A stretch of 64,000 bases of DNA from positions 1 to 64,000 of the forward strand of contig JAFIGD010000012.1 of the NCBI GenBank assembly GCA_020831625.1. The letters run 5' to 3'. The translations under genes were made by a program, and so were the position numbers. Source of the stretch: Verrucomicrobiota bacterium (lineage in GTDB: Bacteria > Verrucomicrobiota > Kiritimatiellia > SS1-B-03-39 > UBA6053). The notes under the pieces were generated by a model, which saw only the letters and a program-made list of their open reading frames with translations, was not told the DNA's origin and made no database searches. Shown one piece after another: positions 29,191-34,120 of this stretch; position 1 is the stretch's first letter; the number at the start of each line of letters is the position of its first letter.

Positions 29191-29853
29191 TCACGGCAAC
29201 ACGTCTTTTTTGCGTTGTAAACGCCAAACCGACACCTCTCCAACTTGGAGTATGTTTTTCCGAAGCCAGTCTTCGGTTGAAAGCATGTCAAAAAACGTTT
29301 TGGCCACCGGACGGCCGGGTTCGCTCAGCCACACTTCTCCGCCGGGTGCCAGCAGGCGGTTGAAGGATTCGAGCAGAGGCAGAAAATTCCGCTCCTCATA
29401 GGCCACATCAGCGGCCAGAATCCAGGAGACACGCAAAGCATCCGGCGGGTTCCGCCAATCGATCAGCTGGGTGGCGGGTGAATCAATGCCGGCGCATTGA
29501 GCGTTCCAGGCGGCGAGGGTAAGAGCCTCCGGCATATAATCCGACCAGATGCCTCGGGATCCCCGGCGGCATGCCGCCAGGCCCGGCAGTCCCGGCCCGC
29601 ATCCCAGCTCCAGCCAAGGGCCTTCCGGCCGGGAATCCACGGTCAGAACCGCCTCCGCTAAAACCCGGGCCGAAGGCCAGAGCTCCGCCCAGTAAGGGAG
29701 CCGCTCATCGAGGACGTCCGGATGATCCGGGGCTTTCTCGGCAAGTGCCTCAAGCAGGCGGTCCGGATGCTTTGCGGTCCAAAGCGCGAACGACTCGGAA
29801 CCGACCCGGACCGTGGTGGAGATCATTTCACATGGGAAATCGGGTGTGGACAT
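29191..29853 (-). CDS. Class I SAM methyltransferase, METTL21/ETFB-lysine-type
   Basis: A 220-residue Rossmann-fold methyltransferase. It has the pre-motif PYWAELWPSARVLAEAV, motif I LELGCGPGLPGLAA and the acidic motif-II residue in GIWSDYMPEAL, then ILAADVAYEERNF. The WAELWPS-type segment before motif I is characteristic of protein lysine methyltransferases of the METTL20/21 group, so a protein substrate is likely rather than a small molecule. Which protein is modified cannot be told. It is convergent with the kinase operon (8 bases) and divergent from the TMxI-repeat gene. Confidence 0.7.
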   Translation of the reverse strand: MSTPDFPCEMISTTVRVGSESFALWTAKHPDRLLEALAEKAPDHPDVLDERLPYWAELWPSARVLAEAVLTVDSRPEGPWLELGCGPGLPGLAACRRGSRGIWSDYMPEALTLAAWNAQCAGIDSPATQLIDWRNPPDALRVSWILAADVAYEERNFLPLLESFNRLLAPGGEVWLSEPGRPVAKTFFDMLSTEDWLRKNILQVGEVSVWRLQRKKDVLP

Positions 29854-29956: not shown

Positions 29957-31903
29957 ATGACCACGCACGATTCCGGGAGCACGTCCGGTCCAGAAAAAAA
30001 ACTGAGTTTAAAATATCGTTTATCGCAGCTAAACGAGAAAAAATTCGCATTGGATGACGAGTCGTCTGATGCGGACAAAACAATGCAAATTGTTCTGCCT
30101 GAAGAGGATGAGTCTAATCAGACGATGCAGATTGATGAGGGGGATATACAAATTCACCCCGATTATCGTTCGGGGCATCCCGGGCCAGGTAAACCGGATG
30201 AATCCCCTGAACATGAAGCGGAACGGACGATGCGCCTTTCAGATCTTTCTCAGGAAGAAGAGTCGGACCGCACCATGTTGATCAATTTTGAAAAGGACGG
30301 AACCCTGGAAGAGGCGGCGTCTGACCGGACAATGAAAATCAAATGTGATCGGGATGAGATCAGTGAAGAAGAGGCTTCTGACCGGACGATGATGATTGAT
30401 TTGGGGAAAAACAAGGGGGGGGGAGAGGATCACCTGGACCGAACAATGATGATTGACCTGGGGAAAAGCGGGGCGGGGGAAGGAGCGGAATATGACCGGA
30501 CGATGATGATTGATTTGGACCGTGACCGTGATGCCCTGCCGGAGGGCACAGACCGGACCATGCTGATTCACATGAACCGGCAAGCGGATGAGGAGCCGGA
30601 GATCGAAGCTCGTGTGCACCCCCCCTCCGAGTCAAAAACCGCGCGGTACGCGAAAGTGGTTCGTCCGGGAGAGTCAAAGTCCCGCACGTCATCGCTGCCT
30701 CTGAGCATGAGCAAAGCCGACGAATCCCGCCACACACCCATGGGGGATCCCCGCAAGCGGAGCAGCGTCAAGCGAACCCTTTCGGGGGGATCATCCCCTA
30801 TGGAAGAAATGCGGAATGAGAATCCACTTTGGGCCTGGACCCGGGCTGTGCATCCAACCCGGGGAGGACTGGCGGCACTGCTCTGTTTTCCCGTCTCCGG
30901 CTTGGCCTTCGTGAATATCGCGTTTTCCTGGATGATTCCCGATCATCCGGGGCCCTTGCCGATTGTGGGTTCGGACGCTTTTGTCAGCCAATATTTGGTG
31001 CCTGATTTGGCCACAGGCTTCCTCTTATGGTTTATTATGGCGATGCTCGCTCAAATTCTGTATTCCGGCGCGGGAGGTCGGCCGCCTTTATTGTGGACGT
31101 TGAAGATCATGGTGTTCGCCCTGCTGCCGTTCGCGTTGGTTCGGCTGGGCTGGATGGGGGTGCATGTGCTGATGAACGGACCGGAGTCGTTTCTGCGGGG
31201 ATACCGCCCCCCCTGGGCGAGCGGTGTCACCCCCGTGCTCTATTTTCTGACGGGGGCACTGACCGTGTTCATGCTCTCAAAAGCCGCCTCCAGTGTGCAT
31301 TGTCAGGCGCACGAAAAGAGGGCGCTGTTTTCCTTCTCATTGATTCCGATATTGTTTTTGACCGGACACATTGCCTTTATGCAGATACAGGGCTGGCGTT
31401 TTGAACAGCGCATCGGTCCCGCCTGGCGTCGGGCGGAATCGGCCTGGTCCGAGTCCCGTTCCCGTGAGGCCTTGCCGCTTTTAGAGGAGGTTTTGGATTA
31501 TCCGCGGATTCTGACTCCGTCTCAAAAAGCCCGGTTTTACCAGATGCGCGGTGAGCTGCGGTTACAGGAGGGGCTGGTCCTGAAGGCCCGCGAGGATTTT
31601 ATCCGTACGGTGCAGTTGCTGCCGCCCTCCCATGCGGAAAACCGAATGGCCCGCGCCGCGAATCTCCTGGCGCTGGACCGGGTGGATTTGGCCCGGGTTC
31701 AGCTGCAGATTGCGGAGGAAATGCGGCCCGCTTCGGCCAATGTCCACCGCTGGCTGGCCCGTTTGGCTCTCGGTGACTTTGACCCCGAATTGAAAAACCC
31801 GGCACTTGCGATTGATTATGCCCGCCAGGCGGTCGCCCTCGAGCCGAGCGCCCCGAATAAAGCGCTGTTGGAACGGACTGAGCGGGCCCTAAGCCCGCTC
31901 TGA
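29957..31903 (+). CDS. Membrane TPR protein with nine TMxI motifs, probable kinase substrate
   Basis: Three parts make up 648 residues. Residues 1-275 are acidic, disordered-looking and cytoplasmic, with T-M-x-I/L at threonines 42, 56, 91, 106, 125, 144, 163, 182 and 201. The last six are spaced exactly 19 residues and most sit in (S/L)DRTMMI-like contexts. Residues about 290-480 hold five hydrophobic segments. The C-terminal 170 residues are TPR-like (AESAWSESRSREALPLLEEV, LKAREDFIRTVQLLPPSHAE). Thr followed by Ile or Leu at +3 is the preferred form of phosphothreonine ligands of FHA domains, so the repeats may be multi-site docking points phosphorylated by the neighbouring kinases. No homologous characterised protein is known to me. 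Confidence 0.7.
   Translation: MTTHDSGSTSGPEKKLSLKYRLSQLNEKKFALDDESSDADKTMQIVLPEEDESNQTMQIDEGDIQIHPDYRSGHPGPGKPDESPEHEAERTMRLSDLSQEEESDRTMLINFEKDGTLEEAASDRTMKIKCDRDEISEEEASDRTMMIDLGKNKGGGEDHLDRTMMIDLGKSGAGEGAEYDRTMMIDLDRDRDALPEGTDRTMLIHMNRQADEEPEIEARVHPPSESKTARYAKVVRPGESKSRTSSLPLSMSKADESRHTPMGDPRKRSSVKRTLSGGSSPMEEMRNENPLWAWTRAVHPTRGGLAALLCFPVSGLAFVNIAFSWMIPDHPGPLPIVGSDAFVSQYLVPDLATGFLLWFIMAMLAQILYSGAGGRPPLLWTLKIMVFALLPFALVRLGWMGVHVLMNGPESFLRGYRPPWASGVTPVLYFLTGALTVFMLSKAASSVHCQAHEKRALFSFSLIPILFLTGHIAFMQIQGWRFEQRIGPAWRRAESAWSESRSREALPLLEEVLDYPRILTPSQKARFYQMRGELRLQEGLVLKAREDFIRTVQLLPPSHAENRMARAANLLALDRVDLARVQLQIAEEMRPASANVHRWLARLALGDFDPELKNPALAIDYARQAVALEPSAPNKALLERTERALSPL
30257..30571 (+). repeat. 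Six 19-residue (57-base) degenerate repeats carrying DRTMxI
   Basis: Threonines at residues 106, 125, 144, 163, 182 and 201 recur every 57 bases without any slippage in spacing. At DNA level the units are diverged apart from the GACCGGACNATG-type core, while at protein level the core (D)RTMxI is almost invariant. That pattern suggests selection on the motif rather than recent duplication. Three further copies upstream (42, 56, 91) have irregular spacing. Confidence 0.8.
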
Positions 31904-33940
31904 CGGATCGGTCGATGACACCAGCGGCAGTCCGATTTCAAACGCGGCCCCTTTTCCGGGTTCTGAATGAACCTGAATATAGCCTCCGGCCTGCCGAACG
32001 AGGCCGTAAACGGTGGCAAGCCCCATTCCCGTTCCGTTGTCCCGGGATTTTGTGGTGAAAAATGGATCGAATATTTTGGACTGCAGGTCCGGGTCCATCC
32101 CCGGTCCGTTGTCTTTGACATGCAAGCGGGCGTAAACGCCGCCGGGGCAGTCCGGGATAGTATGCGCCGCCAGAAAAAACGTGTCGGTGCGGATTTCGAT
32201 GGTTCCCGGACCCGCCAGCGCGTCCCGCGCGTTGATGCAGAGGTTCATCAGGATCTGGTCCACACAGGTTGGATCAATTTTTACGGGAAGAGGTGTTTCC
32301 GAAGGATTCCACAGGAGGCGGATATCTTTTTCAAACAGATTGTTGAGGAGGCCCCGCAAATCATTGATGACATCATTCAGGTCCACCACAACCGGGCAAA
32401 GATCCTGTTTACGGGAAAACGCCAGCAGTTGCCGGGTGATTTTAACGGAGCGGGTTGCGGCGCTGTGAATATGGTTCAGTTCCTCCATTTCGGGAGAATC
32501 GGGCGGCATTTTCATTTTCATCAGTTCGCAGCCGCCCAGAATAACCCCCAGCATGTTGTTATAATCGTGGGCGACGCCGCCGGCCAGCCGACCGACCGCG
32601 TCGAGCTTGTGGGCGTGGAACAGCTCCGCCTGCAGGGCCAGCTGTTCTTTTCTGGCGTCTTTCATGGCCTGAATGTCCTCATGAAATCCGATAAACCGGT
32701 TTTCCTCCAGACGCCTTGCACAAATCCGGACCCAAAACCGCTCGCCCGACTTCTTTTTCAATTGCATTTCCGCGTCCATGAATCCCTCCTCCAGCAAGGA
32801 CGCGAACTGTTTTCCCGCCAGTCTCTGAAAATCATCCGCCACCAGGGTCGACACGGGTTGACCCATCAGTTCCCGCTCGGAGTATCCCGTCATTTCGCAG
32901 GCCATGGGATTCAGTTCCTGATAGAGCCCCAGCTCATTGACAATAAAGACACCGAACGGAGCGTGATCAATATAACTCCTCCATTTTTGTTCACTGTCCC
33001 GAAGTTGAGCGTTGGCATCTCTGAGCGAGGCGACGGCCTGATCCACTTTCGACCGCAACAGGGCGTTAAACACCACAAAGGTAGATAAACTCACAGCCAA
33101 CAGCAACATAAGACCCGACATCCAGGTGGGGATCACATTGCGGGAGTCAGATTTCATCCAGCGGGCCAGAACCTGGAAGTAGGGTGAATTTGCCCGGTTT
33201 TGCCAGTCACGGATGTTCCGGTCGATCGCGCCCAGCACATCCGCGTTTTCCCCGCGGTTGGCCACAAAATACAAAGCGACCGGATTAAGAATTACCGGGG
33301 TTTTCCGCAGGCCGTGCCGGTTGTACACCATGTCGCCGAAAAATTGATTGGCGACGACAGCATCCGCCTGATTGGCCACAACCATGCGGAAAGCCTCGTC
33401 AAACGAGTCCGCGGGTACCAGCGTGAAGGATAATTCCAGACCTTCCGCCAGCCGCTGAAGCACATTCGCCTGAACCGAGTCTTTCAACACCGCAACACGC
33501 AGCCCGTTCAAGTCGCCCAACCCTTCAATCCGAAACCGTCGGCGCGCATAGACCTGAGACCAGGAGGTGATTACAAACTCGGAATGGAAATCCATTATTC
33601 GGGCCCGGGCGGCGGTATGGGCAACGTCCGGCATGAGATCCAGCTCATTGTTTTGCAGTTTTTGCAACCCCTCCGCCCAGGTGACCGGCACATAGTCTAA
33701 TTCCCATCCCTCAACCTCCGCAATCGCATCAAGAAGTTCCAGAAAAATACCGGACGCATTGCCTTCGGGGGTCATAAACACTTTCGGCGGATTGTCATAA
33801 ACCCCTACGCGAAGGGTCCGCGCGGACACCGGCACACCCATCCAAACGGCTGACATCAAAAACAACGCGAACTTTCGCAAAAGGGTCCTGCTCCTCCGCG
33901 GGACGTCTCCCCCTCCTCCATGCTTTCGATGGTGATTCAT
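31889..33940 (-). CDS. Sensor histidine kinase: SBP_bac_3 - PAS - HisKA - HATPase
   Basis: A membrane sensor with an extracellular solute-binding type 3 domain (TLRVGVYDNPPKVFMTPEGN onward, about 40-270), a membrane segment (WMSGLMLLLAVSLSTFVVF), a PAS domain (SYIDHAPFGVFIVNELG), a HisKA region with the phospho-histidine in LAGGVAHDYNNMLG, and an HATPase domain with N, G1 and G2 boxes (NLCINARDAL, DNGPGMDP, GTGMGLATVYGLV). The HDYNN form is typical of kinases that often partner NtrC-like or orphan regulators. A signal peptide (LFLMSAVWMGVPVSA) fits the outer domain. The ATG at 33940 is chosen; an upstream TTG would add 11 residues. Its last 15 bases overlap the end of the convergent TMxI gene. 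Confidence 0.88.
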   Translation of the reverse strand: MNHHRKHGGGGDVPRRSRTLLRKFALFLMSAVWMGVPVSARTLRVGVYDNPPKVFMTPEGNASGIFLELLDAIAEVEGWELDYVPVTWAEGLQKLQNNELDLMPDVAHTAARARIMDFHSEFVITSWSQVYARRRFRIEGLGDLNGLRVAVLKDSVQANVLQRLAEGLELSFTLVPADSFDEAFRMVVANQADAVVANQFFGDMVYNRHGLRKTPVILNPVALYFVANRGENADVLGAIDRNIRDWQNRANSPYFQVLARWMKSDSRNVIPTWMSGLMLLLAVSLSTFVVFNALLRSKVDQAVASLRDANAQLRDSEQKWRSYIDHAPFGVFIVNELGLYQELNPMACEMTGYSERELMGQPVSTLVADDFQRLAGKQFASLLEEGFMDAEMQLKKKSGERFWVRICARRLEENRFIGFHEDIQAMKDARKEQLALQAELFHAHKLDAVGRLAGGVAHDYNNMLGVILGGCELMKMKMPPDSPEMEELNHIHSAATRSVKITRQLLAFSRKQDLCPVVVDLNDVINDLRGLLNNLFEKDIRLLWNPSETPLPVKIDPTCVDQILMNLCINARDALAGPGTIEIRTDTFFLAAHTIPDCPGGVYARLHVKDNGPGMDPDLQSKIFDPFFTTKSRDNGTGMGLATVYGLVRQAGGYIQVHSEPGKGAAFEIGLPLVSSTDPSERA

Positions 33941-34120
33941 GATTGACGACAGTTTACCGGGTTTCCTATACAATATACAAGGTAATAATTTTTACGCCTT
34001 TGGATAAATCTTGGCGCGATCTGTTTTTTTCATTGCAAGTTTTGACGGTCCATGGAATTGTGTTCAAGTGCAGATGCCGTTTCTGCATGAATGTTCACCC
34101 CTCTGAATAGGTTAACTATA

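Follow-up and report, generated by a model that had tools for sequence, protein, structure and literature searches.

Arrayed Thr-x-x-Ile/Leu motifs in a Verrucomicrobiota membrane protein and in an unrelated, class-wide protein family: predicted docking sites for FHA domains

The N-terminal tail of P0001, a membrane protein encoded in the window (the whole stretch of 64,000 nucleotides analysed here), carries an array of nine TMx[IL] motifs (Table 1), and the same motif recurs in an otherwise unrelated protein family found in much of the bacterial class. With moderate confidence, we interpret P0001 as a membrane-anchored, multi-site phosphothreonine docking protein that would be written by Hanks-type kinases and read by FHA domains. 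This interpretation, put forward in an earlier note as a phospho-docking scaffold, draws on features that can be read from sequence: the arrays, their specificity for Thr and for the residue at +3, the membrane segments, a genome that encodes both kinases and FHA domains, and the joint distribution of arrays and FHA domains across genomes. It is the reading that best fits the strict use of Thr, the Ile/Leu at +3 and the five FHA and eleven kinase domains of the genome; conservation of the motif, which the earlier note made a test of its reading, is mixed, with one close orthologue keeping the array and eight Yip1-TPR homologues of P0001 lacking it.

Table 1. Features of the array gene and its neighbourhood (positions in the window).
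Feature	Position	Strand	Basis
Array protein P0001 (648 aa), with a motif tail at the N-terminus, a Yip1-like membrane domain and a TPR-like C-terminus	29957..31903	+	Translation, Pfam, orthologue L001/L008 at 73-76% identity
Acidic, disordered-looking tail, residues 1-304 (K+R 44, D+E 65)	29957..30868	+	Low-confidence model, charge count
Nine TMx[IL] motifs, T42 to T201, mostly DRTMxI	30080..30568	+	Motif scan
Six 19-residue units, T106 to T201; spacer diverged, motif conserved	30266..30607	+	Unit comparison
Five hydrophobic segments, Yip1-like	30869..31393	+	Hydrophobicity; Yip1 E 1.4e-5, below cut-off
TPR-like helical C-terminus	31430..31900	+	Pfam TPR_16, structure model
Hanks-type kinase P0002, 829 aa	25535..28024	+	Pkinase E 6.3e-46
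Hanks-type kinase P0003, 383 aa, hydrophobic C-terminal segment	28031..29182	+	Pkinase E 5.9e-47
Methyltransferase-like gene separating the kinase genes from the array gene	29191..29853	-	Pfam scan

The array of P0001, its membrane domain and its gene neighbourhood

Translation placed the motifs at T42, 56, 91, 106, 125, 144, 163, 182 and 201, exactly the positions claimed in the earlier note. The preceding residues were DR in six cases, in agreement with the description "mostly preceded by DR", and DK, NQ and ER in the remaining three. Successive motifs are 14, 35 and 15 residues apart, and then five times 19. On shuffling of residues 1-295, for which the looser pattern TMx[ILVM] was counted, the mean was 0.21 motifs and the maximum 5 in 20,000 shuffles. 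Among the 230 open frames of the window (stop to stop, at least 100 codons), P0001 alone has more than one TMx[IL], and three frames have one. I, L or V is found at +3 from 10 of the 19 Thr of residues 1-295 (2.4 expected), but from 1 of the 31 Ser; P0001 therefore carries a T-x-x-I/L array specific for Thr and not for Ser, as does the tail-anchored family described below.

Six units at exactly 57 bp, of which Tandem Repeats Finder recovered only 2.4 copies, might be seen if the tail had grown by slippage of a 57-bp unit, leaving a neutral or structural repeat with a motif that has no partner. We regard this as very improbable: the motif, six residues long, is 83-100% identical in protein between units, whereas the spacers have 0-38% amino-acid identity and 31-62% DNA identity, the Thr codons are mixed (ACA, ACC and ACG), the motif is kept in a diverged orthologue with turnover of its sites, and it occurs in a non-homologous family across the class. 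Recent tandem duplication was rejected as the whole explanation because the spacers are too diverged and the Thr codons too mixed. The orthologue (L001), 76% identical to P0001 overall, carries eight motifs at spacings of 33, 16, 15, 18, 15, 20 and 19 residues; T56 of P0001 has no counterpart in it, and it has a TMQI where P0001 has no motif. Given the diverged spacers, the varied Thr codons and this orthologue with eight motifs at partly changed positions, the motif looks selected, and turnover of sites at a nearly constant number would be expected if a disordered tail served for docking. The exact 19-residue period reported in the earlier note stands for five consecutive spacings of P0001 but is absent from the orthologue; it was rejected as a structural ruler on account of this loss.

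Matches to P0001 were obtained in 16 of 146 related genomes, its own included; in several of these the match is confined to the TPR part (L022 is TPR-only). The Yip1-TPR homologues L009, L010, L011, L013, L014 and L017 and the own-genome paralogue L023 contain no TMx[ILVMF], and L012 has a single one, inside a hydrophobic stretch. L009 and L010 belong to the same genus as P0001, yet have no array. Conservation of the motif in orthologues, the lack of which had been named as evidence against docking, thus holds for one close orthologue (L001/L008) but not for these eight other homologues. The motif is therefore a property of the tail, and the possibility that it is a feature of the Yip1-TPR family was rejected.

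Behind the tail lie five hydrophobic segments and a TPR-like region, as the earlier note had it, with the qualification that both family matches fall below the curated Pfam cut-offs: residues 305-469 match Yip1 (PF04893, E 1.4e-5) at 25.5 bits against a cut-off of 28.6, and residues 492-550 match TPR_16 (E 5.8e-5). By that cut-off P0001 is not a member of the Yip1 family, which it resembles in its hydrophobic segments and from which it also differs in being bacterial and in having a TPR-like end and a motif tail. No PDB sequence matched P0001 at E 0.01. The AlphaFold model, built from two sequences and of low confidence (mean pLDDT 42.7), has neither helix nor strand in residues 1-289, consistent with the disordered-looking tail previously described. 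A cytoplasmic location of the tail, also part of that description, is likely in view of its length, its acidity and the lack of an evident signal sequence. Because the number of segments is odd, tail and TPR region would lie on opposite sides of the membrane; the charge pattern (a first loop without K or R, and six K/R in residues 480-510) favours neither orientation.

The two kinase genes start 4.4 kb and end 0.8 kb upstream of P0001, at the distances given in the earlier note, with the addition that an opposite-strand, methyltransferase-like gene intervenes, which makes it unlikely that kinases and array gene form one operon. The kinase order is the same in L001/L110, where the first kinase is broken off at the contig start, and L001 has a similar minus-strand frame at the place of the methyltransferase-like gene. 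Kinases adjoin the Yip1-TPR protein in both genomes in which that protein is tailed. Around untailed homologues, kinases were sought with a catalytic-loop pattern and through BLAST clustering with P0002/P0003, with the surroundings of the G010 homologue left out: none was found in L105, L106, L107, L108, L111 or L029, and L109 has one kinase about 4.4 kb from the homologue. Motif tail and kinase neighbours go together, but this constitutes one syntenic event in one genus. No type VI secretion family was detected among the ten neighbourhood proteins scanned against Pfam. Where the array gene ends, the opposite strand encodes (31889-33973) a histidine kinase with an N-terminal SBP_bac_3 solute-binding domain and a PAS domain.

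A tail-anchored array family and the specificity of its sites

The DNA pattern D-[RS]-T-M-x-[ILV..] matched the six DR sites in P0001 and, on another contig of the same genome (G000:C15), a DRTMQI; it also gave a DRTMNI reading at C42, outside any open frame of 100 codons. The array protein of C15 (hereafter referred to as the C15 protein; 532 aa, L025:2650-4248, own genome C15:96649-98247) has a hydrophobic segment near its C-terminus and no Pfam or NCBIfam match. In its residues 1-480, I, L or V lies at +3 from 19 of 36 Thr (5.4 expected), compared with 1 of 41 Ser. The protein has matches in 13 of 146 related genomes (own included), among them all 11 genomes searched of the taxonomic family. 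Profile A2, built from eight rows of its C-terminal part, matched at least 156 of the 288 genomes of the class, in 91 of 113 genera, with at most 12 candidates scored per genome; G025 was missed in this search and matched in a phylum-wide draw, in which 42 of 194 genomes matched A2, all listed as the same class or nearer. Profile A1 matched, in the genome itself, only P0001 and the C15 protein, plus three weak matches in frames of 22-61 aa. When the motif was sought with A1 in the 11 taxonomic-family genomes, P0001-type and C15-type proteins and scattered single matches were recovered, and nothing in G006.

P0001 lacks the C-terminal anchor and the homologous KTxxIKRP block that define the C15 family. 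It is not among the own-genome matches to the C15 protein or to A2, and consists of an N-terminal tail and a Yip1-TPR body; the motif alone is in common. The 30 best-scoring of the 156 orthologues found (L075-L104) were read, and have 6 to 28 T-x-x-[ILV] sites per protein. In the regions read, C15-family genes have as neighbours, named by eye, a short lipoprotein-like gene and mutY, thioredoxin or frr/pyrH; a kinase motif was not found in these regions. The C15 protein is the more general finding. Since P0001 shares its motif with this class-wide, tail-anchored protein, it appears to have joined, at a later stage, a motif vocabulary already in use in the class.

Thr with I, L or V at +3 exceeded expectation in all 30 of these best-scoring orthologues, +3 was the highest of eleven offsets in 26 of them, and Ser with such a residue at +3 was slightly above expectation in seven. 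A set of 18 representatives (each stretch longer than 60 aa, and no two sharing above 45% identity across more than 50 aa) was analysed in the stretch before the best-scoring domain, chosen because the profile itself holds the motif; weaker profile matches remain inside this stretch. Here 157 of 342 Thr had the +3 residue (49.6 expected), a count reached in none of 5000 shuffles. The other Thr offsets gave 29 to 74, the latter at +5 (74/342, 49.6 expected). Ser was depleted at +3 (24/311, 45.1 expected), with none of 5000 shuffles as low. Outside every profile match, the Thr excess was weak (10 of 46 Thr in six representatives, about 5.7 expected, reached by 90 of 2000 shuffles). In 228 other open frames of the fetched contexts, used as background, Thr and Ser were flat at 0.20-0.24 at all offsets (0.23 at +3), in a set that retained some array-family members (e.g. 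a 294-aa frame of L112) and in which individual frames scatter, the highest having 8 of 13 Thr.

The residues enriched around the C15-family sites read K-x-x-T-x-R-I-D-L, a consensus that DRTMMIDL of P0001 matches at T, I, D and L. The residue at position 0, counted in 30 related and hence not independent sequences, was Thr in 69 of 71 x.RI[DEPSA], 55 of 58 xM.I and 53 of 53 x.[RKML][ILV][KR]RP contexts; in the looser context x.[RKQEMP]I[DES] it was Thr in 121, Pro in 8 and Ser in 1 of 147. An extended strand would be compatible with the alternation in T-x-[RK]-I-D-L; an excess is also seen at +5, and the neighbourhood points to no reader. The sites might accordingly be a linear motif independent of phosphorylation, in which T-x-x-I-[DE] adds as a beta strand to a partner or fits its groove, with dynein light chain and PDZ ligands as analogues. 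A plain strand ligand would, however, be expected to tolerate Val, Ile or Ser, which hardly ever replace Thr in the first and third of the contexts above, and we consider this explanation distinctly unlikely. Docking read by FHA domains calls for Thr, and not Ser, sites with a preferred residue at +3, and such sites were found. FHA domains are described as specific for phosphothreonine in PMC3953482, and a pThr-x-x-Ile mode is reported for yeast Rad53 FHA1, beside Asp at +3, in PMC4037201.

FHA domains and kinases in the genome and across the class

Searches of the genome gave five FHA domains and eleven Pkinase matches above cut-off; FHA proteins, the absence of which the earlier note had named as evidence against its reading, are thus present. 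We take GR, SxxH and NG to be the elements of the phosphothreonine site of the FHA domain. R and S of this site are named in PMC3953482. All three elements are kept in L002 and in the FHA protein of L027 (match L005), and the FHA domains of L003, L004 and L006 deviate in the site by eye, with NP replacing NG in L004. The best PDB sequence matches of the L002 FHA domain were entries for GarA, oxoglutarate dehydrogenase inhibitor, TB39.8 and Rv1747. Clear orthologues of L002 were found in 24 of the 28 genomes searched (L125-L148), and all 24 keep GR, SxxH and NG. Four array-positive genomes (G012, G076, G102 and G144) have generic FHA matches only and no clear L002 orthologue, so that L002 is not an obligate reader. 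KTA[KR]L, which resembles the array motifs, is present in the tail of L002 in 9 of 11 taxonomic-family genomes (L131 is without it and L135 is masked), and in none of the 13 orthologues outside the family. The pattern I-[KR]-[IL]-[KNS]-[KR] is present in 13 of the 24 orthologues, including all 10 readable family members.

L002 (L002:1411-2028, own genome C26) is a short FHA protein ending in IKIKRN, which resembles the KTxxIKRP blocks of the array family, and most of its orthologues have a GKGYxTILREIV-like segment after the FHA domain. The FHA protein of L027 (L027:8793-9446, own genome C97) is also short; it has one TMQL site and ends in a region with a hydrophobic segment at the C-terminus. 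The overlapping frame that follows its gene on the same strand is pilin-like by eye. The FHA domain of L006/L030 (own genome C50:42300-42494) is N-terminal on what was identified by eye as a CpaF-like secretion ATPase, and 3.6 kb beyond it lies L003, another FHA protein, which has a hydrophobic segment.

FHA domains were found in 265 of the 288 genomes of the class and in all 156 array-positive genomes. None of the 23 FHA-less genomes (20 listed; G222, G224 and G226 by elimination) has the array, and 12 of these 23 have kinases. No array was found in 109 of the 265 FHA-positive genomes, in a search of at most 12 candidates per genome that missed at least G025. All 23 FHA-less genomes fall within families f18 and f31. 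The array is missing from the FHA-positive members of these two families as well, so that these absences amount to about two independent observations and are in large part explained by lineage. One f18 genome, G140, has sixteen kinase matches and no FHA domain; ten other FHA-less f18 genomes have no kinase match. For the co-occurrence of the repeat with kinases and FHA proteins, which the earlier note had proposed as a check, the FHA distribution has its negative side carried by these two families, and kinase adjacency is the single event in one genus described above.

The preference for Thr and for the +3 residue could stem from a kinase alone, if the sites were kinase targets rather than docking sites: the kinase would need T-x-x-I/L, and phosphorylation would supply bulk negative charge or alter the contact between tail and membrane, with no FHA reader. 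Kinases select basic and acidic flanks of the kind present in K-x-x-T-x-R-I-D-L, and kinases, not FHA genes, adjoin P0001. Nevertheless, the twelve kinase-bearing FHA-less genomes all lack the array, though they represent only two lineages, and KTA[KR]L is shared with the FHA protein L002 within the taxonomic family. We judge this explanation unlikely, and retain docking of FHA domains as the preferred reading.

Known systems, proposed mechanism and significance

No published description of such threonine-motif arrays was found in the open-licence literature, in agreement with the earlier note, which knew of no description of this architecture. In bacteria, kinase-to-FHA signalling has mostly been described at single sites, in actinobacteria and in secretion systems. 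The mycobacterial and corynebacterial systems combine a Hanks kinase with an FHA reader, and their known ligands have single or few phosphothreonine sites. The FHA domain of L002 relates the present case to the GarA/OdhI, TB39.8 (FhaA) and Rv1747 systems by its PDB matches, but the mycobacterial and corynebacterial systems are not known to have an array or a tail-anchored array family. Several Thr sites in a disordered tail are found in the Rad53 SQ/TQ clusters of yeast checkpoint proteins.

PMC3953482 provides one single-site case from a secretion system. In the Agrobacterium TssL-Fha-PpkA system described there, the kinase target is a Thr of an inner-membrane protein, located in its cytoplasmic N-terminal region, and once phosphorylated this Thr is bound by an FHA protein, in the manner proposed here; that system has one site, in type VI secretion, whereas nine and more arrayed sites are present here. 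The sites also resemble the pTXXI of Mdt1, which is recognized by Rad53 FHA1 according to PMC4037201. The arrays suggest a previously undescribed set of predicted phosphorylation docking sites.

In the mechanism that we propose, the disordered N-terminal tail of P0001 would present its nine T-x-x-[IL] sites to the cytoplasm, and at least one Hanks-type kinase, with the adjacent pair P0002 and P0003 the most likely, would phosphorylate the tail threonines. FHA-domain proteins would then recognize pThr-x-x-Ile/Leu and assemble at the membrane, and the multivalency of the tail would set the number of FHA proteins bound. We infer the phosphorylation, the kinase and FHA protein concerned, and a cellular output from the patterns described above. 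A wider reading can be offered tentatively: one dedicated membrane-anchored scaffold may serve as the general FHA docking hub of a PVC-group class, which P0001-like membrane proteins would join by evolving the same tail motif, and such a hub would be a bacterial counterpart of multi-phosphosite adaptor proteins.

If this is true, a strict Thr-x-x-Ile code in a class-wide scaffold and in a second protein would provide a sequence rule predicting kinase targets and FHA partners, and would serve a little-studied bacterial group. The question of whether one FHA protein reads all these sites would thereby become directly testable.
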